34,571 nt of DNA, taken from contig CAMAQB010000034.1 in assembly GCA_945860285.1 (NCBI GenBank), positions 1 to 34,571 on the forward strand. Reading direction: 5' to 3'. Shown here piece after piece: positions 1 to 9,219 of the stretch. The notes under the pieces are model-generated. The model was not told where the DNA came from, did not search any database, and was given only the letters and a program-made list of their open reading frames with translations. Position 1 is the stretch's first letter. Every line of letters starts with the position of its first letter. This DNA is from Akkermansia muciniphila (lineage in GTDB: Bacteria > Verrucomicrobiota > Verrucomicrobiia > Verrucomicrobiales > Akkermansiaceae). The translations under genes were made by a program, and so were the position numbers.

Positions 1-875
1 GCCGGTGCCGGTCGCGGTGACATTCAGCACGGTGGTTTGGCCGCTGTTGATGGTGACCGATGCCGGATGGCTGCTGATCGCGGCGGCTTGATTGATCGAG
101 ACCACGGCGGTGTTGGAATTCGCGCCGGCACTATTCGCGACATTGGTGACCTTGACCCAATAGCTTGTCGCGGTGCTCAGTGCGGGTGTCGTGAAGCTGC
201 TCGAATTCGTGCCGACCGGTGTGGTGGTGCTGGGTGAGGTTCCCCGATACCATTGATAGGTGAGCGGGCCGGTGCCGGTCGCGGTCACACTCAACACGGT
301 GGTTTGGCCGCTGTTGATGCCCACCGAAGCCGGATGGCTGCTGATCGCGGCGGGCTGGTTGATCGAGGCCACGGCGGTGTTGGAAATGGCGCCCGAAAGG
401 TTTGCCGCATTGGTGACCTTGACCCAATAACTTGTGTTCAACGTCAACGCCGGTGTCGTGAAGCTGCTCGAATTCGTTCCCACCGGCGTGGTGGTGCTCG
501 GCGAAGTTCCCTGATACCATTGGTAGGTGAGCGGGCCGGTGCCGGTCGCGGTGACATTCAGCACGGTGGTTTGGCCGCTGTTGATGCCGACCGAAGCCGG
601 ATGGCTGCTGATCGCGGCGGGCTGGTTGATCGAGACCACAGCGGTGTTGGAATTCGCGCTCCCCCCGGTGTTGGTCACTTTCACCCAATAGCTGGTCGCG
701 ATGCTCAATGCCGGTGTCGTGAAGCTGCTCGAATTCGTACCCACCAGCGTGGTGGTGCTGGGTGAGGTTCCCTGATACCATTGATAGGTCGGTGCCGGGG
801 TGCCCGTGGCCACGACCGATAGCGTAGTGGTGGTGCCGGTGTTGATCGATGTCGATGCCGGATGCGTCGTGATGG
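1..875 (-). repeat. Ig-domain repeat array, inverted copy of the array at 32805-34118
   Basis: Tandem units of about 258-267 bases encode Ig-like domains. Read on the minus strand, unit 1 and unit 2 match units 1 and 2 of the right-hand array in the same order, including the unit-2 signature ALTLNTSYWVKVTNAANLSGA. In a 96-base stretch of unit 1 I count three differences between the copies. The similarity begins at the first Ig unit; the N-terminal domains of the two genes are unrelated. Confidence 0.9.
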
Positions 876-1407
876 CCGGAGCCGTGTTTCCCACTGCGAC
901 GACGATGGTGAATGTTCCCGTGGCGAAACCTCCGCTGAACCCGGCATTTTGCCATGCCTTGATGGTTATCGGGAAGCTGCCGGACTGCGTGGGGATGCCG
1001 TTGATGGAATTGGACTTGTTGCCAGTTGATCCGCTGTTCAAAAGGCTCAGCCCGGTCGGCAGGGTGCCGACAACCTGCCAGCTTCTCGGGGTTGTCACAC
1101 CCGTGCCGCTCGCGGTGAACAGGAAGTTCAGATTGACTCCGGTGGTGGCGTTGACTGTTGCTGAATTGACATTGGGAGCGTTTTGAGTAACGACCGTGGC
1201 ACCCGAAACCGAATCGTAGGCTCCGAGTCCCGCGAATGTGGCGATGGCCAGGGCACTGGTATTGGCGGCGGTCGCGCCGGTCAAATAGCCTGCCTCGGGG
1301 AACAACATCTGCACCAGCGGACTGCGCTGGAACAACAGCAGCAGGGAACTGGCTTTGGAAAAAAAGCGTCGAATGGCAATGGTGATTTGTTTCCTGGAGT
1401 TTTTCAT
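1..1407 (-). CDS. Ig-repeat surface protein, candidate ApbE-flavinylated protein (3' end outside window)
   Basis: The frame is open from the ATG at 1407 to the left edge (469 codons seen, C-terminus missing). The N-terminus is basic with a twin Arg (IRRFFSK, residues 12-18), then a Leu-rich stretch. It is followed by a segment with TGAT (43-46) and D-S-V-S-G-A-T (65-71), which matches the Dxx[ST]GA[ST] consensus modified by ApbE FMN transferases. Residues about 90-170 resemble a putative-Ig (He_PIG) fold (LPTGLSL ... GIPTQSGSF). From about residue 177 there are at least three Ig-like repeats of 86-89 residues with QWYQGTSPSTTT and SYWVKVTN motifs. It starts 26 bases after the DUF4266 gene and is the last visible gene of the ApbE cluster. 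The frame and repeats are seen directly; surface location and flavinylation of T71 are inferred. The export signal is not a clean Sec peptide; a Tat-like reading is possible but weak. Confidence 0.8.
   Translation of the reverse strand, partial: MKNSRKQITIAIRRFFSKASSLLLLFQRSPLVQMLFPEAGYLTGATAANTSALAIATFAGLGAYDSVSGATVVTQNAPNVNSATVNATTGVNLNFLFTASGTGVTTPRSWQVVGTLPTGLSLLNSGSTGNKSNSINGIPTQSGSFPITIKAWQNAGFSGGFATGTFTIVVAVGNTAPAITTHPASTSINTGTTTTLSVVATGTPAPTYQWYQGTSPSTTTLVGTNSSSFTTPALSIATSYWVKVTNTGGSANSNTAVVSINQPAAISSHPASVGINSGQTTVLNVTATGTGPLTYQWYQGTSPSTTTPVGTNSSSFTTPALTLNTSYWVKVTNAANLSGAISNTAVASINQPAAISSHPASVGINSGQTTVLSVTATGTGPLTYQWYRGTSPSTTTPVGTNSSSFTTPALSTATSYWVKVTNVANSAGANSNTAVVSINQAAAISSHPASVTINSGQTTVLNVTATGTG
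1195..1215 (-). other. Candidate flavinylation motif D-S-V-S-G-A-T
   Basis: These seven codons encode Asp65 to Thr71 of the Ig-repeat protein. Known ApbE substrates such as NqrC, RnfG and other extracytoplasmic flavoproteins carry [ST]GA[ST], often preceded by an Asp three residues before the Ser/Thr, and FMN is linked to the last Thr/Ser. The motif is seen; its use is inferred from the ApbE gene in the same cluster. Confidence 0.5.
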
Positions 1408-1433
1408 GACAAGCGTGGGGTTGGAAAAATTCG

Positions 1434-1661
1434 TTAGTTGCAGCCACAGCCGCCGCCGCCCACGCCGCCGCCGCCGAAGCTGGCTTCGCGGGAGAAGTAG
1501 GCGTGCTCGGTCATGGCCTTCTGCAAGGGATCGCGGTCCTGGCTCGATAGTGGACCAGAGAGATTGCCGCGTTCATAGGGTTGCACGCGGACCAGTGCCG
1601 GCGAACAACTGCTGAAGAGTCCGCCCAACAGGGCAAGAGCGAGAAATGGGCTGGGGCTCAT
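1434..1661 (-). CDS. DUF4266 Cys-rich small lipoprotein
   Basis: 75 residues. A hydrophobic leader (residues 5-16) ends in LFSSC (Cys19), a plausible if not ideal lipobox, so the mature protein is probably a lipid-anchored peptide of about 57 residues. It carries the family signature VQPYERGNL and the HAYFSREAS segment, and ends in a Gly-rich tail GGGGVGGGGCGCN with a C-x-C pair. This pattern is that of DUF4266, a family of unknown function. The gene lies 25 bases after the thioredoxin gene and 26 before the Ig-repeat gene. The ATG at 1661 was chosen because it places the leader at the N-terminus; there is no clear ribosome binding site. The C-x-C could be a substrate of the neighbouring thioredoxin or a metal site; neither is shown by sequence. 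Confidence 0.82.
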   Translation of the reverse strand: MSPSPFLALALLGGLFSSCSPALVRVQPYERGNLSGPLSSQDRDPLQKAMTEHAYFSREASFGGGGVGGGGCGCN

Positions 1662-1686
1662 GTCAGTGGCGATGTTGCGGTTGATT

Positions 1687-2172
1687 TTATTTGGCGAGAA
1701 GTTCCTCGATCTCCTTGGTGTACTGCTCTTCGGTTTTCGCGCCCTTGAAGCCGGTGTGGATGTAGCGGATGACTCCCTTGCGATCAACCAGGTAACTGGA
1801 TGGCATGGTGCTGGGACTGAAAAAGGCCGCGGCCTTGTGCTGGGCGTCGTGCACCAGTGTGAAAGGGACTTTTTCCTTCGCCGCAAATGCCTGGTGTTTC
1901 GCGGGAGCGTCATCCACGCCAATGCCGATGATCACCAGTCCTTTGCCGGAATATTTTTGGTGGAGACGGGAGAAACACGGAAACGACGCCTTGCACGGCG
2001 CGCACCAAGAAGCCCAGAAATCGACCAGCACCACCTTGCCGGTAGTGGCGGGCAGCGCGGCTCCCGGCAACAGGGTGGCGAGCTTGGGCATGGTTTGTCC
2101 CACTTCCGGTTTGGCGGATGCCATGCTGATAGTGGCGAGAACGGTAACGAATGCGGTTGTCAGTGTTTTCAT
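1687..2172 (-). CDS. TlpA/ResA-type thiol-disulfide oxidoreductase
   Basis: 161 residues with a Sec signal peptide (cleavage likely after ASA, residue 20). The thioredoxin fold has the active site WCAPC (Cys57, Cys60) in VLVDFWASWCAPC and a later cis-Pro region (TMPSSYLVD), as in the AhpC/TSA-Redoxin TlpA group. It should act outside the cytoplasmic membrane, reducing or exchanging disulfides. It lies 39 bases after the ApbE gene and 25 before the DUF4266 gene, so the Cys-x-Cys tail of DUF4266 or disulfides in the Ig protein are natural candidate partners (inference). Length and motifs are normal for the family. The partner that reduces it in turn (a DsbD/CcdA type protein) is not in the window. 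Confidence 0.93.
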   Translation of the reverse strand: MKTLTTAFVTVLATISMASAKPEVGQTMPKLATLLPGAALPATTGKVVLVDFWASWCAPCKASFPCFSRLHQKYSGKGLVIIGIGVDDAPAKHQAFAAKEKVPFTLVHDAQHKAAAFFSPSTMPSSYLVDRKGVIRYIHTGFKGAKTEEQYTKEIEELLAK

Positions 2173-2211
2173 TGGTTGATGATGTTGATGTGAATTTGTT
2201 GGAAAAAACTG

Positions 2212-3183
2212 TCATGCAGCGCGAACCTGGCGGCGGACAAACCCCGGCGTTTGTTCGATGCCTTTCTCGTCCTGGGCACTGGCATCGACCCCTGGCGCGC
2301 AGTTGGCGAACGCCAGTCCGGCGCTGCGGCCGAGCACAAATACGGTGGTGCTGTAGATCCCCGCCTGCAAACACGACGGCGCGCAGACGCTGGCGGCCCG
2401 CATCCCGTTCGCCACCGGCCAGCCGGTGCGCGGATCGAGGATGTGCCCGTAACGGATGCCGCGATGTTCGAAGCGGCGCGCATAATCGCCCGAAGTGCAG
2501 AGCGCGAAGTCCACGATCGCAACTCCACCCCAACAGGTCCCGGGATTCATGCCATCCTCCAGTCCAACGTGCCAGAAGGGATGCATGCCGTTGCCGCCCA
2601 TGCCGTAGATATCGCGGCCGAAATCCACCAGCGCGTCGACGATCCCGTAACCCCGCGCGATGGCCACGACCTGATCGACCGCATATTCCTTGCCAAATCC
2701 ACCAAAGTCCAGGCCCATGCCCTCGATCGGCAGATAAACAGCACCGTTTCGGCGCTCCACCTTGTCCCACCCGGTCAGCGTACGGGTTTTGTCGATGAGC
2801 GGTTGCTCAGGAAGAGAGGTGTGCACGGTTTTCCAGTCCCACAGTTTCAACAAGGGCAGCATGGTCGGATCGAGTATGCCATCGGTCAGCCGATACAGCT
2901 TGTCGGCGAGATCCAGCATTTCATTCATTTCCGCATCGACGGCGACGGGGCCTTTGCCTGCGGCATCATTGATTTTCGTCACCAACGAGGAGGCACGAAA
3001 ACGCGAGAATTTTTCTTCAAACCTCTCAACCCAGCCCAGCGCGTCGGCGAGAAAACACAGCGCGGTTTTTTCGTCGTCCATGCGGAACTGAATCACACAG
3101 GTGGTGCCGAGCGCGCGAAACTCCACACGCCGCACGCCACGTGCATCGGGTTTTGCGGGAGATGGCATCGCGCCTGGGTTCAT
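2212..3183 (-). CDS. apbE: ApbE family FAD:protein FMN transferase, atypical metal site
   Basis: 323 residues, family length. Typical ApbE blocks appear in order: FRALGTTCVI (about 23-32), FSRFRASSLVTKIN, GILDPTMLPLLKLWDW, GLDFGGFGKEYAVDQV, the LVDFGRDIYGMGG block, CTSGDYARRF and HILDPRTGWP. These enzymes transfer FMN from FAD to a Thr/Ser of a target protein. Two oddities are visible. There is no signal peptide or lipobox, although most ApbE proteins are exported. And where the family has ADA-x-[AS]T, with an Asp that binds Mg, this protein has A-G-I-Y-S-T-T, so the Asp is replaced by Gly. It starts 7 bases after the DUF3570 stop. The best substrate candidate is the Ig-repeat protein with DSVSGAT in the same cluster. 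Family assignment is firm; activity is less certain because of the missing Asp. Confidence 0.92.
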   Translation of the reverse strand: MNPGAMPSPAKPDARGVRRVEFRALGTTCVIQFRMDDEKTALCFLADALGWVERFEEKFSRFRASSLVTKINDAAGKGPVAVDAEMNEMLDLADKLYRLTDGILDPTMLPLLKLWDWKTVHTSLPEQPLIDKTRTLTGWDKVERRNGAVYLPIEGMGLDFGGFGKEYAVDQVVAIARGYGIVDALVDFGRDIYGMGGNGMHPFWHVGLEDGMNPGTCWGGVAIVDFALCTSGDYARRFEHRGIRYGHILDPRTGWPVANGMRAASVCAPSCLQAGIYSTTVFVLGRSAGLAFANCAPGVDASAQDEKGIEQTPGFVRRQVRAA

Positions 3184-3190
3184 GGGAGAA

Positions 3191-4363
3191 TCAAAAGGTG
3201 AGGTTGAGTCCGAAGGTCCAGATGTCGGCGGAAATGTAAGCCTGCGAAGGTGCCGTGTCGGAACCGGAACCAGTCATCTGATAGTGCTCATACGACAACG
3301 AAGCCGCGAGGGTTTCATTGATTTGCAGCCGGGTACGCATCCCGAGGCTCACGGCATCGAAGGACGCAAGTCGATAGTCGGCGGAATAGTTCGGACCCGA
3401 CCCATCGGGATAATCCGGAGGAGAGTCGATCGGTACGTCGTCGAGCGTGTTGGTGAAAAAATCCGCAGCACTTTGATGGTAGTAGCGGAAAAAGGGAGTG
3501 ACCTCGAATGCTTCGCCAATCGCCTGACGCCATTCGAGTTGTATGGTTCCGGAGACGACACCGTAATCATCATTCGAAAATCTCATCACCGCATCGAGCG
3601 CCGCGCCGACGTTTTCGAAGAGATGCGTTCCCTGCAATTGAAGGACCGCGCGCATCCTGCTGTCGGGGCGGTTTTCCGGATAGGAATTGAGCACATCAAA
3701 GCGGTTGAATCCACCCATGCCATCGGGCAGATACAAGGTTTCGGTGCGCTGGATGCTCTTGTAGGGATCGTTCAAATATCCCTCGCTGTATCCCAACGTG
3801 AGGTTCGCCGACACGTAGGTGTTTTTGTCGATCAACTGGGTGACACCGGCGAACAGGTCGTAGTTTTTCTTGTCCTGCTTGTCGATGCCCTGCACGCTGA
3901 CGTCGTCATCCAGATAGTTCAGACCGTAGGTGATCGTTGTATTTTTTTGGTTAAGACTCCACTTGTCGCTCAATGCAAGTCCGTAGGACAGGTAGTCGTT
4001 TTCCTTACTTCGCGAAAGTTCGAGTTCCACACGATGATCGCCGAGTTGGCGGGACAAAGCGCCCATGATGCCGCGGCGCACGTCCTTCAGATTGGCGAGA
4101 AAGGGCAGCTCGTCGCTGGGCATGTTCCCCGTGGGAGAAGATCCGCTGATCGCGTCGCGGAGATATTGAAAACGGAAGGAAGTTTCCGCATTCAAGGTGA
4201 TGTCCCCGCGCAGATAGTACGATTCGACACGAATTCTGTCGTCCTCTTCCTGATAGACCTGGTAGCTGGCATCGTAGCGCTGGGCATCGGGCAGATAGCT
4301 GCTTTGGCCTGCGCCCACGGAAGGGAGCAGCAAGGGCGTAAAAATGAGTGAACGGCTTTGCAT
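3191..4363 (-). CDS. DUF3570 outer-membrane beta-barrel protein
   Basis: 390 residues from the ATG at 4363, chosen because it gives a signal peptide (MQSRSLIFTPLLLPSVGA). An upstream in-frame ATG would add 28 residues that come from the end of an insertion-element remnant. The mature protein has alternating polar/hydrophobic strands (YSEGYLND, YDLFAGVTQLI, LQLQGTHLFE) and ends in FGLNLTF with a terminal Phe, as outer-membrane barrels do. The sequence has the look of DUF3570, a family of unknown function that I know to be found near ApbE, thioredoxin and DUF4266 genes. It is the first gene of the cluster and is followed 7 bases later by apbE. It probably forms the outer-membrane component of the system (inference). 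Confidence 0.85.
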   Translation of the reverse strand: MQSRSLIFTPLLLPSVGAGQSSYLPDAQRYDASYQVYQEEDDRIRVESYYLRGDITLNAETSFRFQYLRDAISGSSPTGNMPSDELPFLANLKDVRRGIMGALSRQLGDHRVELELSRSKENDYLSYGLALSDKWSLNQKNTTITYGLNYLDDDVSVQGIDKQDKKNYDLFAGVTQLIDKNTYVSANLTLGYSEGYLNDPYKSIQRTETLYLPDGMGGFNRFDVLNSYPENRPDSRMRAVLQLQGTHLFENVGAALDAVMRFSNDDYGVVSGTIQLEWRQAIGEAFEVTPFFRYYHQSAADFFTNTLDDVPIDSPPDYPDGSGPNYSADYRLASFDAVSLGMRTRLQINETLAASLSYEHYQMTGSGSDTAPSQAYISADIWTFGLNLTF

Positions 4364-4435: not shown

Positions 4436-4590
4436 AAAAAGCACCATTGTGGGAAAATAAACATTTGTGATGACGAGCGTAATTGGTAAGTCAAGTGGTC
4501 AAAAAAAACAACCATTTCGTTCGCCATCACAGTAAAAACCTACTCCGTAATTCGTGCCCGATCAAGGGCTTTCTTTTTCGCACCGTCGAG

Positions 4591-4868
4591 ATGACTGAGA
4601 GCCCCAAGAAGCTCATCAAAGTCACCATCGAGCCACGCAAAAACAACCGTGCCAAATGCTCTTGCTGCGGCAAATCCGGTCCCACCTACGACACCTCCCC
4701 CTCAGTTCGCTCATTCGACTACATTCCCCTCTGGAGTTGAATTTGAAAGTAGGCAACGCGATGAGAAGAGCCTTTGGATATAGGAACTTCGAGCATTTGA
4801 GCATTGCCCTTTACCATCAACCGGGCGACCTCCCCGAGCCGCAAGCCACCCACAGATTCTGCGGATGA
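4591..4868 (+). pseudogene. ISL3-type transposase remnant (N- and C-terminal pieces only)
   Basis: The first piece (4591-4740) reads MTESPKKLIKVTIEPRKN with CSCCGKSG and YIPLWS, like the N-terminal zinc-binding domain of ISL3 transposases (C-x2-C, then Y/F-x-PLW), and hits a TGA at 4738. The second piece, in another frame (about 4734-4868), reads RRAFGYRNFEHLSIALYHQ and ends LPEPQATHRFCG, like the C-terminus of the same transposases. The end of this piece overlaps the right inverted repeat, as is usual when the gene runs into the terminus. The middle of the gene, about 300 codons, is missing. It may be expressed as short peptides but cannot transpose. Confidence 0.72.
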
Positions 4869-4996: not shown

Positions 4997-5503
4997 GTGT
5001 CGCAAGGGGAAACATATGAGGTCGCGAAAAACCGGATTCCTCCGGCGCGGGAAAAGCAGTTGCTGTATGAAAAAGTTGCATCGAACCTGGACTCGATGCT
5101 CGCAGGGGAAAGTGATGCCACGCTGGTGATGAGCACGATGGTCGCTGTGCTTCACCAGAGCATGCCGCATTATTTTTGGACAGGATTTTATCGGGTTTGC
5201 GGAGAAGAACTGCTCGTCGGTCCCTATCAAGGAACTCCCGCCTGTCTGCGCATCGGCAAGGGCCGCGGAGTCTGCGGCAGCGCGTGGAGCGAACAACGTG
5301 CCATCGTTGTGGCCGACGTGCATGCGTTTCCCGGACACATCGCCTGCGATTCCCGATCCGCGAGCGAGATCGTGGTGCCGTGGTTTGATGCATGCGGAAA
5401 GATCGTCGCCGTTCTCGATGTCGATTCGACCCTGCCAGCAGCGTTTGATCAAAGCGACTGCCAGGCGCTGGAGAATCTGGCGAAACGCTTTCCTCTGCAA
5501 TAA
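4997..5503 (+). CDS. msrC: Free methionine-R-sulfoxide reductase (GAF domain)
   Basis: 168 residues made of a single GAF domain. The conserved fRMsr blocks YFWTGFYRV, LVGPYQGTPACLRI, GVCGSAW and HIACDSRSASEIVVP are present, with the three catalytic/resolving cysteines at 83, 93 and 117, positions almost identical to those of E. coli YebR. The enzyme reduces free methionine-(R)-sulfoxide in the cytoplasm with electrons from thioredoxin. The start is a GTG at 4997; no ATG in the same frame gives a full domain. It is a stand-alone plus-strand gene downstream of the insertion-element remnant. It converges with the DUF1552 gene, with only 6 bases between the stops. Confidence 0.93.
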   Translation: MSQGETYEVAKNRIPPAREKQLLYEKVASNLDSMLAGESDATLVMSTMVAVLHQSMPHYFWTGFYRVCGEELLVGPYQGTPACLRIGKGRGVCGSAWSEQRAIVVADVHAFPGHIACDSRSASEIVVPWFDACGKIVAVLDVDSTLPAAFDQSDCQALENLAKRFPLQ

Positions 5504-5509
5504 ACGGGA

Positions 5510-6823
5510 TCAGCCGAGGACCAGCGCGCCGCCCTCGCAAAGTTCCTTCTTTCCGAAAAGCGGGATGTGATGGCCGAAAGCATGGGCGATGGAAAGCCAC
5601 AACCGGTTGTGGGTGACGCCGTCGAAACGCATCGCCTGACCGGATTTGAAACCGAGTCCACCACCGATGAGCACGAAGGGAATGTTGTCGAGTGTATGGC
5701 TGTTGCCCTTGCCGAGTTCGTTGGTCCACACGATGGTGGTGTGATCCAACATGCTGCCCTGACCACCCGGTTCGGGAGTAGCGTCGAGCTTGCGCGCCAG
5801 GTAGGCGACCTGTTCCGCCAGCCAGATGTTGATTTTCACCAGCTTCTCCTGGGCATCGAGATTTTCATCCGGCTGGTGGGAAAGGTGATGATGGTCGTCA
5901 TGGATATCCAGCCAGCGCATGCGGGCCTGGCCGACGCTGTTGGTGTATTGCATGGTGGCCACGCGGGTCATGTCATTGGCCAGCGCGCTGACCAGCAGGT
6001 CCGATTGCATGCGGCTGATCTTGGGGATGCCGTCGTTGTCGAGCGACACTCCCTGTTCCAAAGAGGGAGGTGGAAACAACAACTGCACGGTGCCGGAGTT
6101 TTGCAGGTCTTTTTCCATTTCCCGCACGAAGGTGGCGTGTTGATCCAGCAAATACTTCTCTTCCGGGTCCACCTGGGCACCGATCCGACGCAGGTCGTCG
6201 CAGACATCATCGAGCACGCTGCCGAGCGTTTCGCGGTCCCTGCCCTGACCGTAGAGTTTGGCAAACAGCGCGTAGGGATCGGCATTCGGAGTCAGCGGTT
6301 GGTTCGCTCCGGCATAGGAAGTGCGCGTCCAGGGATCAGCGCGATTCGGCACCGCGATTCCCAGTTCGAGCGAGCCGAAGCGGGTGGCGGTTTCGGGTCG
6401 CGACTGGAGAAATTGCCGCAATTCCTGATCGATGGAAATGCTGCGCGCCCAGCCCGCCGGAGTTTCGCCACCGCCTTGGATGTTCCCCGGCAGCAGTTCG
6501 TTCGCGGTAAGCAGACAACTCATGCCGCGCATGTGCCTGTCGCCATCGCCGTTGATTTTATTGTGCACCCCTTGCAAGGTCATCATCCGGTTTTTGAAAT
6601 CCGCCAGCGGTGCGAGGATGCGTTTGCATTGGAAGTCGAATCCAACTTGTTCGGGCCAGAACTCCGGGCCGACCGTGCCATTGGGGGTGAACAGAAAAAT
6701 GATGCGCTGCATTTTCGCCCCCGGCGATGGACAGGCGAGGGAGGGCAGCGCCGGCAGGAATGGCAAAGCGGCGGCGGACAAGCCGAGCTGGCGGAGAAAG
6801 TGGCGGCGTGTGTGGATGTTCAT
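5510..6823 (-). CDS. DUF1552 protein, Tat-exported
   Basis: 437 residues. The N-terminus has a twin-arginine signal (TRRHFLRQLGLSAAALPFL). The rest follows the DUF1552 family: an early IIFLFTPNGT block, FWPE, GGGETPAGWARSISIDQ, then DIHDDHHHLSHQ and, near the end, a HTTIVWTNELGKGNSHTLDNIP block, which recalls the alkaline-phosphatase-like DUF1501 fold. Function in the family is unknown. It is translationally coupled to the upstream DUF1592 cytochrome gene by an ATGA overlap. This pairing is standard in planctomycetes and verrucomicrobia, where DUF1552 is thought to work with the cytochrome outside the membrane, possibly on polysaccharide-linked substrates (inference). Confidence 0.92.
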   Translation of the reverse strand: MNIHTRRHFLRQLGLSAAALPFLPALPSLACPSPGAKMQRIIFLFTPNGTVGPEFWPEQVGFDFQCKRILAPLADFKNRMMTLQGVHNKINGDGDRHMRGMSCLLTANELLPGNIQGGGETPAGWARSISIDQELRQFLQSRPETATRFGSLELGIAVPNRADPWTRTSYAGANQPLTPNADPYALFAKLYGQGRDRETLGSVLDDVCDDLRRIGAQVDPEEKYLLDQHATFVREMEKDLQNSGTVQLLFPPPSLEQGVSLDNDGIPKISRMQSDLLVSALANDMTRVATMQYTNSVGQARMRWLDIHDDHHHLSHQPDENLDAQEKLVKINIWLAEQVAYLARKLDATPEPGGQGSMLDHTTIVWTNELGKGNSHTLDNIPFVLIGGGLGFKSGQAMRFDGVTHNRLWLSIAHAFGHHIPLFGKKELCEGGALVLG

Positions 6824-9129
6824 GGCGTGCTGACGTGATTTCCCTGCGCGGCCGCGAGGGTGTTGATTTCGATGAATAACCGGTGGACGTTGAATCCCGA
6901 CGACGTGAAAGTCTGATCCAGATTGTCGAGCGTGTCGAGGCCATACACTGCGGGGCTCTGCTTGATCAGCGACTGAAACATTTGACGAATGAATCCCTTG
7001 CGGGCACTGACCGATTCCACCGCGTGACGAGCCACGTCACGGGGACCGCGCAGCTGCAGCAGATCGCCCTCGATCGTGAAATATTCCGACTCGGCATTGA
7101 TCGGCTTGTCCGCCTCCGCAGTGCGGTAGCGGCCGATGGCATCGAAATTTTCCAACGAAAATCCGAGTGGGTTGATGGTATCGTGGCAGGACATGCAATT
7201 ATTATTGCGTGTCAGTTCGACAACTTTTTCGCGCATGGTCATTTGGGGATCAAAGCGGTGCTTGTCAAAAGCGATCGCCTCGGGCGGGGCTTTGAGAATT
7301 CCGCCCAGCAAATTCCGCGTGATGAAAACACCGCGATGAATCGGTGATGTGCTGTCCGCGTGAGCCAGGCGGGCGAGCAGGAAGGGATGGGTGAGCACGC
7401 CCGAGCGCGGAGCGGAATCAGATTTCACCGGTTGAAATCCCTCGCCGCCGGGCCATGGAATTTTGTAATAGTTGGCCAGGCGCTCATTGAACAACAGGTA
7501 ATCCGCCTGGATCAATTCGCGGTAGTCGGACTTCTCACTACACACCACCTGTTCGACAAAAAGTTCCAGCGAGCGCCTCAGGTCGGCGACCACAGCCGCA
7601 TCAAAACCGGGAAACTCTGTGGGATCCTTTTGCAGGTCGGCATCGCCGTCGAGTTTCAACCAGTGCTGGAAGAAACTGTTCAGCTTGGCTTTTGCGCGCG
7701 GGTCCGCCGCCATGCGCTGCGCCTGCTCGCGAATCTGCCCGCTGTCGCGAAGCTTCCCGGTTTTTGCAGCGTCCAGCAATATCGCATCGGGCAGCGAGTC
7801 CCACATCCCCAGCGCCAGGCGCGTGGCCGCAGTGAAGTCATCTTTTGCTTTTCCGATCTCGGGGTACAGAAATCGCGGCGACTCCAGCATCAGGATCACC
7901 GCACGTTTCACCGCCTGCTCGGGAGTTGCGTCGCCGGCAAAGTGTCGATCAATGTACATTTGTTTCATCGGGTCATCCAACGGACGACGGAAGGCCCGTT
8001 CGGCCAGTGTTTGCAGAAACGACTTCAGACGGGGCACGCGATCCGGATCGTTGGCGTTCAGCCCGCTCAACAGTGGCAATCGGACCAGCACCTGATTGGC
8101 GACATCGACGGCGGCGGCACTGACAGCCTCGTGCCAGGCTTTGGAAACTCCGGTGCCGCGCTCAAAACCCTCGCTGGCATCATCGGCGGGAAAATCCGCG
8201 CTGACGCAAGCCACATGACCCGCCGTCACGGGCGACAGATAAGGCGCGGCCAAAACCTCCCACGACCCCTGCGGCGCTTTCCACTCCAGCCGCACCATGC
8301 CGGTTTTTTCCTGGTACTTGAAATAATCAAATCGCAGCGGATAGGCGCGACCACCTAACAAAAAAACCCGCGCTGTTGACTCCCTGACGGTCTCGCCGGT
8401 GCTGACCCATGCATCGATCAGCGCCGGTTGGCGTTTGCTGTCGTTGTCGTCGCGCTTGTTGCCCTCGTCCTGCTGCGCTTCACCATTCAAGTACAGCCGC
8501 GCGCCGTTGGGCGTGCTGATTTTGAACTCATACCATCCGGTGGCGGGGGCGAGCAACGAACCGCTCCAGGCGATGCAGAATTGGTCCGCATTAATGCCGT
8601 CGACCGGGGCACGATCGGCGAAATCAAAGGACAATGCCTCATCCTGTCGATCCAGCACCAGCCGCTCCTTTTTGTTCATGCCCTTGGATTGATAATACTG
8701 CGCGCGCAGTCCGGTGGACTCGCCCGGAGGCAAGGGGTTCTGGAAAGAGCCGAACAGATCGGCGACCGACTCGCGGAACTGCCGGTTGGTCAGGCGGGTG
8801 AAAGCCTTTTTCGGCAGTGGCCGGGCGGCTTGCGCGGCGGTGGAGTAAAACGCTCCCATGATGTATTCCGCCACCTGGCGGGCTTCCTCGCCGTTGACCA
8901 GATGCGGCTCGTCGTCGGGCATGTTGCGATCGATGTAGCGGGCCAATGATGCCAGCGAGCGCTCGCCGCGCAGCGGCTCGTCATACTCCTCCTCGACACC
9001 CTCGCCATTTTTGCCGTGACAAGACGCACAGTGCTGATGGTAGACCGCCTCACCCGTCGATGCACCCGGCTCCGCTGACAAGGATCCAGCGAGACAAAAC
9101 GAAAGAATGATGGGAAAACACGCCTTCAT
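6820..9129 (-). CDS. DUF1592-type cytochrome c protein with PA14-like domain
   Basis: 769 residues from the ATG at 9129, which gives a Sec signal peptide (KACFPIILSFCLAGSLSA). Order of parts: a class I cytochrome c with CASCH (34-38); a DUF1587-like RLTNRQFRESVADLFG; a PA14-like module (GLRAQYYQSKG ... SGSLLAPATGWYEFKI ... NGARLYLNG); a DUF1595-like FLQTLAERAFRRPL; DUF1592; DUF1588 with a second heme motif CMSCH (645-649) followed by NPLGFSLENFD; and a C-terminal DUF1585-like part. It is the usual planctomycete/verrucomicrobial multi-domain cytochrome, extracytoplasmic, with two c-type hemes. The PA14 module suggests carbohydrate binding. It overlaps the DUF1552 gene by 4 bases and likely forms a two-gene operon with it. 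Substrate unknown. Confidence 0.93.
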   Translation of the reverse strand: MKACFPIILSFCLAGSLSAEPGASTGEAVYHQHCASCHGKNGEGVEEEYDEPLRGERSLASLARYIDRNMPDDEPHLVNGEEARQVAEYIMGAFYSTAAQAARPLPKKAFTRLTNRQFRESVADLFGSFQNPLPPGESTGLRAQYYQSKGMNKKERLVLDRQDEALSFDFADRAPVDGINADQFCIAWSGSLLAPATGWYEFKISTPNGARLYLNGEAQQDEGNKRDDNDSKRQPALIDAWVSTGETVRESTARVFLLGGRAYPLRFDYFKYQEKTGMVRLEWKAPQGSWEVLAAPYLSPVTAGHVACVSADFPADDASEGFERGTGVSKAWHEAVSAAAVDVANQVLVRLPLLSGLNANDPDRVPRLKSFLQTLAERAFRRPLDDPMKQMYIDRHFAGDATPEQAVKRAVILMLESPRFLYPEIGKAKDDFTAATRLALGMWDSLPDAILLDAAKTGKLRDSGQIREQAQRMAADPRAKAKLNSFFQHWLKLDGDADLQKDPTEFPGFDAAVVADLRRSLELFVEQVVCSEKSDYRELIQADYLLFNERLANYYKIPWPGGEGFQPVKSDSAPRSGVLTHPFLLARLAHADSTSPIHRGVFITRNLLGGILKAPPEAIAFDKHRFDPQMTMREKVVELTRNNNCMSCHDTINPLGFSLENFDAIGRYRTAEADKPINAESEYFTIEGDLLQLRGPRDVARHAVESVSARKGFIRQMFQSLIKQSPAVYGLDTLDNLDQTFTSSGFNVHRLFIEINTLAAAQGNHVSTP

Positions 9130-9219
9130 GGCCAGCAACTGCTACGTTGCAAAGCGGGGTTTTTTTCATGAAAGCTCGGCACGTGCCTGATGACGGCGTT
9201 TCTACCCGCGACACACCGA

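Follow-up and report, generated by a model that had tools for sequence, protein, structure and literature searches.

An Ig-repeat protein as a probable second flavin carrier of the DUF3570/ApbE gene cluster in Verrucomicrobiae

Which proteins receive the flavin in a gene cluster where a flavin mononucleotide (FMN) transferase stands close to a repeat protein bearing the transferase's target motif? This question is raised by a 34,571-nucleotide stretch of Akkermansia muciniphila DNA (assembly GCA_945860285.1, contig CAMAQB010000034.1; hereafter the window), which begins, on the minus strand, with five co-directional genes for DUF3570, ApbE, a TlpA-like thioredoxin, DUF4266 and an immunoglobulin-like (Ig) repeat protein, with gaps of 7, 39, 25 and 26 bases. 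All five have Pfam matches above cut-off (DUF3570 4.6e-69, ApbE 3.6e-66, AhpC-TSA 2.9e-20, DUF4266 6.3e-18, and Ig_7, Ig_3 and I-set for the Ig protein). A sequence-only reading of the window had reported this arrangement, with gaps of 7-39 bases and the motif DSVSGAT ending at Thr71 before an Ig array, and had proposed a flavin-based redox cluster; open reading frames, gene set and Pfam matches bear out both statements. It had further named the Ig protein as the flavinylated component. We find that the Ig protein is probably an ApbE substrate with Thr71 as its site (probability about 0.65, judged from sequence), and that it would be a second one, DUF3570 already having been shown to be a substrate (PMC8238504).

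A known four-gene core and its Verrucomicrobial form

Clusters of ApbE, DUF3570, a thioredoxin and DUF4266 were described by Méheust et al. 2021 (PMC8238504), who counted 285 flavinylation clusters that include DsbD and 316 four-gene clusters that do not, proposed iron in connection with the DUF3570 clusters, and established by co-expression that the DUF3570 protein of Chlorobium luteolum is flavinylated at two [ST]GA[ST] sites. Theirs is the only study in the literature searched that names DUF3570 or DUF4266, and its text does not mention a barrel for DUF3570. The earlier statement that no function is assigned is therefore wrong for DUF3570: experiment has established it as a substrate of ApbE, and its cluster has been on record since 2021. 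In the window, too, DUF3570 is thus the protein to consider first as flavin carrier.

The cluster studied here shares with this published 'DsbD system' the same four genes, including DUF3570, ApbE and DUF4266 side by side in the window, the C-terminal CxC of DUF4266 and the known flavinylation site in DUF3570; DsbD is linked in some relatives (for example, locus L128) and unlinked in the window's genome. Three differences stand out. The usual gene order is DUF3570-ApbE-TlpA-DUF4266-Ig, as opposed to TlpA-DUF4266-DUF3570-ApbE; DUF3570 has one site instead of two, reading SGSS in the window; and the Verrucomicrobial form adds a fifth conserved gene with a motif of its own. The four-gene core is already known, and the Ig protein as a near-constant cluster member across the Verrucomicrobiae is new.

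This near-constancy emerges from a profile of the first 86 residues of the Ig protein, searched against 236 Verrucomicrobiae genomes. The N-terminal module of the protein (~66 residues) was found in 32 of the 36 genomes with DUF4266 and in none of the 200 without it, and wherever it was found, apbE was present as well (32/32). DUF3570 occurs in the 36 DUF4266 genomes and in one more, while ApbE is present in 36/36 of these genomes versus 133/236 overall. In a phylum-wide genome draw, the module had zero matches outside the Verrucomicrobiae. At the level of loci, in a fetched set that includes some duplicates (one genome was retrieved via two routes), 111 Verrucomicrobial clusters have enough downstream DNA; the motif follows DUF4266 within 600 bases in 77 and lies farther downstream in 19, and 15 were missed by the first profile, with divergent copies later recognised in four of those. 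The module is absent from all 13 clusters outside the Verrucomicrobiae that had enough DNA to be testable (Proteobacteria, Chlorobi and others). The sequence-only reading had asked whether such clusters always include a protein with [ST]GA[ST]: Verrucomicrobial clusters nearly always carry the Ig protein, and elsewhere 0/13 have such a partner, DUF3570 itself often having two sites there.

Moreover, linkage persists when genes are shuffled. Within the window's taxonomic order, 387 genomes were screened and the 80 further loci that they yielded agree, the Ig gene being kept in the cluster despite rearranged order; for example, the reordered loci L354 and L358-L359 run DUF4266-NT-DUF3570-ApbE with linkage retained. 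In L134-L136, ApbE adjoins the Ig gene and DUF3570 is absent. In L128, the genes for DUF4266 and the Ig protein are separated by a full DsbD (6632-8332; DsbD_N, DsbD_TM and thioredoxin by Pfam). Thioredoxin-like open reading frames resembling the L128 DsbD were also seen in L123, L125 and L132, the Pfam scan having covered L128 only.

A genome may have as many as four copies of the module, some of them outside the cluster, and the passenger behind it ranges from a single Ig-like domain to ~25 Ig domains. Because the passenger is so variable, we take the conserved unit to be the module together with the first Ig-like domain; the Ig array as the defining feature was ruled out by divergent members that have no array. 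The window's own copy (1..1407, minus strand) is truncated inside its repeat array, since the window starts at a contig end; this end within Ig repeats, at base 1, is probably an assembly break. Overall, the Ig protein belongs to the Verrucomicrobial form of the DUF3570/ApbE/thioredoxin/DUF4266 system as an integral fifth component and is probably its second flavinylated protein.

Thr71 as the proposed flavin acceptor and the competing readings

The N-terminal module (1195..1407, minus strand), which no Pfam or NCBIfam model matches, consists, by alignment and AlphaFold2 (AF2) modelling, of a hydrophobic helix 1 with a QR.P stretch (Pro30 invariant, Gln27 near-invariant), a linker, helix 2 and the motif D65-S-V-S-G-A-T71 (1195..1215). 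In the AF2 model, the first strand of the first Ig-like domain (residues 72-171, 895..1194; Foldseek finds Ig-like folds, e.g. the S-layer protein SbsC) begins at residue 72, placing the proposed site between hydrophobic helix 2 and that strand. All 170 distinct copies have Thr or Ser at the acceptor position; Gly stands at -2 in 160 of them and Ala at -1 in 152. The motif columns average 2.7 bits and form the most conserved segment, and the module as a whole reaches 1.69 bits compared with 1.67 for the Ig domain. Its conserved place in the operon across the Verrucomicrobiae and its invariant acceptor Thr/Ser make the Ig protein a probable target of ApbE. Like the known ApbE substrates (FMN_bind, NqrB/RnfD, DUF2271, DUF3570, Flavodoxin_4 and FMN_red), it combines D-x-x-[ST]-G-A-[ST], with a Thr/Ser acceptor in last position, with a gene in the neighbourhood of ApbE; unlike them, its module lies outside Pfam and NCBIfam families and its site has a hydrophobic helix on one side and an Ig-like domain on the other.

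A second line of evidence comes from DUF3570 (3191..4363, minus strand; alternative longer start 4447), the established substrate family. AF2 models the window's protein as an 18-strand barrel (mean predicted local distance difference test score, pLDDT, 92.9), with Foldseek matches to OmpG, FadL, OprO and AlgE, consistent with an outer-membrane beta-barrel. The homologue of the flavinylation site, recognised by sequence, alignments and published motif biochemistry (PMC8238504), reads DAISGSSPTG (4127..4156), as opposed to an SGAT, SGAS or AGAT core in most relatives; it lies at the end of strand 3, beside an 11-residue loop, which would put it on the outer side, provided that the N-terminus faces the periplasm as it does in other barrels. 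Two strict [ST]GA[ST] sites occur in 0/153 DUF3570s from loci with the Ig protein and in 10/43 from loci without it. This split between one and two sites suggests that the second flavin may be carried by DUF3570 itself in some lineages, and by the Ig protein among the Verrucomicrobiae. Non-Verrucomicrobial DUF3570s (L255, L256, L260, L265, L232, L262) often show two [ST]GA[ST] sites, 11-40 residues apart, with no Ig partner.

The two proteins also vary in parallel at their sites. Nonstandard residues at -3 of the DUF3570 site (25 AGAT, 4 VGAT) recur in the Ig motif, with Val matched by Val in 3/4 cases and Ala by Ala in 21 of 23 DUF3570 sites with Ala. Furthermore, SG[ME]T in DUF3570 pairs with SGQ[ST] in the Ig protein in 15/15 cases. 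The loci of genus g272 (L330, L333-L335, L337-L341, L343-L345, L350-L353, L356) mostly carry SG[ME]T, both proteins being off-consensus at the Ala position.

The alternative that survives best, which we nonetheless hold to be unlikely, is that signal peptidase I cuts at the conserved [SAV]-G-A-[TS], where a long signal peptide made of two parts would end; the Ig protein would then be an ordinary surface protein and DUF3570 the sole flavoprotein. It would account for the position of the motif directly after helix 2, whose hydrophobicity is signal-like, with the first Ig strand starting at residue 72, as well as for Ala, Ser, Thr or Val at -3 in 169/170 copies and the prevalence of Ala at -1. 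Such a peptidase does not require the invariant Thr/Ser at +1 or the Gly at -2, though, and -1 is Gln in 17 copies and Val in one, all with the Thr/Ser acceptor retained. Signal peptidase I is not known to accept Gln or Val at -1; a shifted cleavage position in the Gln clade could rescue the reading there. Additionally, the module is conserved like a mature domain, unlike the genuine signal peptides of the same operons, which are conserved at ~40% of their mature parts (TlpA 0.93 versus 2.31, DUF4266 1.21 versus 3.06 bits per column), and cleavage would not explain why the motif variants parallel the DUF3570 site.

Considerably less probable is a sorting or membrane-docking role, in which the module would be read by another part of the system (e.g. 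DUF3570 as an exporter) and the motif would be a flavin-free recognition element. One module in front of very variable passengers, repeated within genomes and in part off-cluster, would suit this, as would the conserved Pro30 and Gln27 of helix 1; against it, the motif fits the ApbE consensus and tracks the variants of the site in DUF3570, an established ApbE substrate. Lastly, a chance match can be dismissed on conservation: such matches do arise in a Ser/Thr/Ala/Gly-rich protein, as illustrated by a TGAT at residues 43-46 (1270-1281) in the linker between the helices, rejected as a second site since it is not conserved and is absent in relatives, but D..[ST]GA[ST] is expected by composition only 0.003 times per 469 residues, and the acceptor and its neighbours are the most conserved columns class-wide.

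Several observations weigh against flavinylation of Thr71. Its support is at the level of sequence, and FMN on the cluster members is a prediction. Strict D-x-x-[ST]-G-A-[ST] is found in just 29/170 homologues, the window's DSVSGAT among them, with Ala at -3 in 81/170 and His at -6 in 72/170. The motif would suit signal peptidase I as well, since it follows a hydrophobic stretch and has a small residue at -3 and Ala at -1, and in the AF2 model an Ig fold alone follows the site, with no flavin-binding pocket. The -3 association between the two proteins is strong by Fisher test (6.7e-5), but a correlated-evolution model that takes the tree into account leaves p = 0.03, and the association therefore counts as supporting evidence only. 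The copies with Gln belong essentially to a single genus in the window's family (g272), so that shared ancestry limits the parallel. In addition, we found no precedent in the literature searched for a cytosolic ApbE modifying an exported protein. On balance we favour flavinylation because of the universal Thr/Ser acceptor with its Gly, the mature-like conservation of the module, Gln and Val at -1, and the parallel changes in DUF3570.

An atypical ApbE and a possible two-flavin path

The window's ApbE (2212..3183, minus strand) owes its family membership to PF02424 above cut-off. The catalytic Ser and His are present, with TSG and GHILDP at the right spacing (corresponding to Ser241 and His257 of Vibrio cholerae ApbE), and alignment to solved structures puts a Gly at the position of V. 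cholerae Asp285 and Listeria FmnB Asp301. The same Gly replaces the catalytic Asp in 184/186 aligned ApbEs, almost all cluster-linked, including that of Chlorobaculum, which is related to the species for which ApbE activity has been demonstrated (PMC8238504). In DUF3570-linked ApbEs (the window and L093-L360), Lys-Glu also replaces Lys-Gly in the GGxxKxYAVD motif, and these enzymes may form a distinct ApbE subfamily.

No hydrophobic N-terminal stretch (signal peptide or lipobox) was found in the window's ApbE or in 174/182 aligned ApbEs, which points to an enzyme that is probably cytosolic. As its substrates are presumably exported, flavinylation would take place before or during export. The cytosolic ApbE of Klebsiella pneumoniae (PMC12052999) likewise has no signal peptide; its substrate is a soluble cytosolic fumarate reductase, in contrast to the presumed exported substrates here. 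According to the same review, a seven-residue motif is enough for ApbE, and within it Asp-to-Ala has a minor effect while Gly-to-Ala keeps about half of the labelling (PMC12052999). Export of a folded flavoprotein by the Tat pathway was ruled out, a twin-arginine not being conserved in the alignment (by eye).

A working model can be drawn from these elements. ApbE, carrying no export signal, would take FMN from flavin adenine dinucleotide (FAD) and attach it to two residues, Thr71 in the Ig protein and Ser76 in DUF3570 (DAISGSS), either within the cytosol or while the substrates are being exported. DUF3570 would then be exported by Sec and form an outer-membrane barrel whose FMN lies close to one rim. 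The Ig protein, anchored through its hydrophobic N-terminus, would bear its FMN at the junction of helix 2 and the first Ig domain. Electrons might pass from DsbD to TlpA, on to the CxC lipoprotein DUF4266, through the two flavins and out to an acceptor such as a metal ion; the donor side of this path is supported by the DsbD inside the L128 cluster. The Ig array would be a variable spacer or adhesive part that does not define the system. It had been proposed that the array holds the flavin away from the cell; this does not agree with a site that comes right after helix 2 and just before the first Ig-like strand, or with so variable an array, and the flavin would instead lie next to the membrane-side helix.

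The full proposal, which we advance tentatively and regard as somewhat less likely to be right than wrong, is that the module represents a new ApbE substrate class: a carrier, anchored in the membrane, to which FMN is added in the cytosol, before export, by an atypical ApbE with neither signal peptide nor catalytic Asp, and which forms with DUF3570 a two-flavin envelope path fed by DsbD and thioredoxin. If the Ig protein does bear FMN, ApbE substrates would gain a family that spans a whole bacterial class and lies outside all domain libraries, and the Ig protein would represent a new class of cofactor-carrying electron-transfer protein. The DUF3570 system, in turn, would acquire another carrier as well as a topology, with one flavin at a membrane anchor and the other in an outer-membrane barrel. 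An ApbE without export signal and catalytic Asp further raises the question of whether flavinylation comes first and export afterwards.

Genomic context and neighbouring genes

The thioredoxin (1687..2172, minus strand) is TlpA/ResA-like, with WCAPC and a signal peptide; its best Pfam match is AhpC-TSA, ResA/DsbE models agree, and PF13899, the thioredoxin type of the published system, is at 0.014, below cut-off. The DUF4266 lipoprotein (1434..1661, minus strand) ends in GGGGCGCN, and both its lipobox Cys and its C-x-C are invariant in the class alignment. By eye, the N-termini of DUF3570 and TlpA are signal-like and that of DUF4266 has a lipobox.

The host genome (3.7 Mb) encodes one ApbE and one DUF3570, both in the cluster, and a single copy of the Ig N-terminus. 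FMN_bind (PF04205) has zero matches in the Ig protein and the genome, which rules out an FMN_bind-type substrate elsewhere; DUF2271 and NqrB/RnfD were not searched for in the genome. DsbD_TM is found in one gene, on another contig (C136), outside the cluster.

Beyond the cluster, an open frame with Cys-x-x-Cys at 4483-4740 resembles a transposase zinc-finger fragment and has no Pfam match. It is followed at 4997-5503 by a GAF-domain protein that looks, by eye, like a free methionine-(R)-sulfoxide reductase and has no NCBIfam match. At 5510-9138, a DUF1552 protein adjoins a large cytochrome c/DUF1592/DUF1588/PA14 protein; pairs of this kind are typical of Planctomycetes and Verrucomicrobia.

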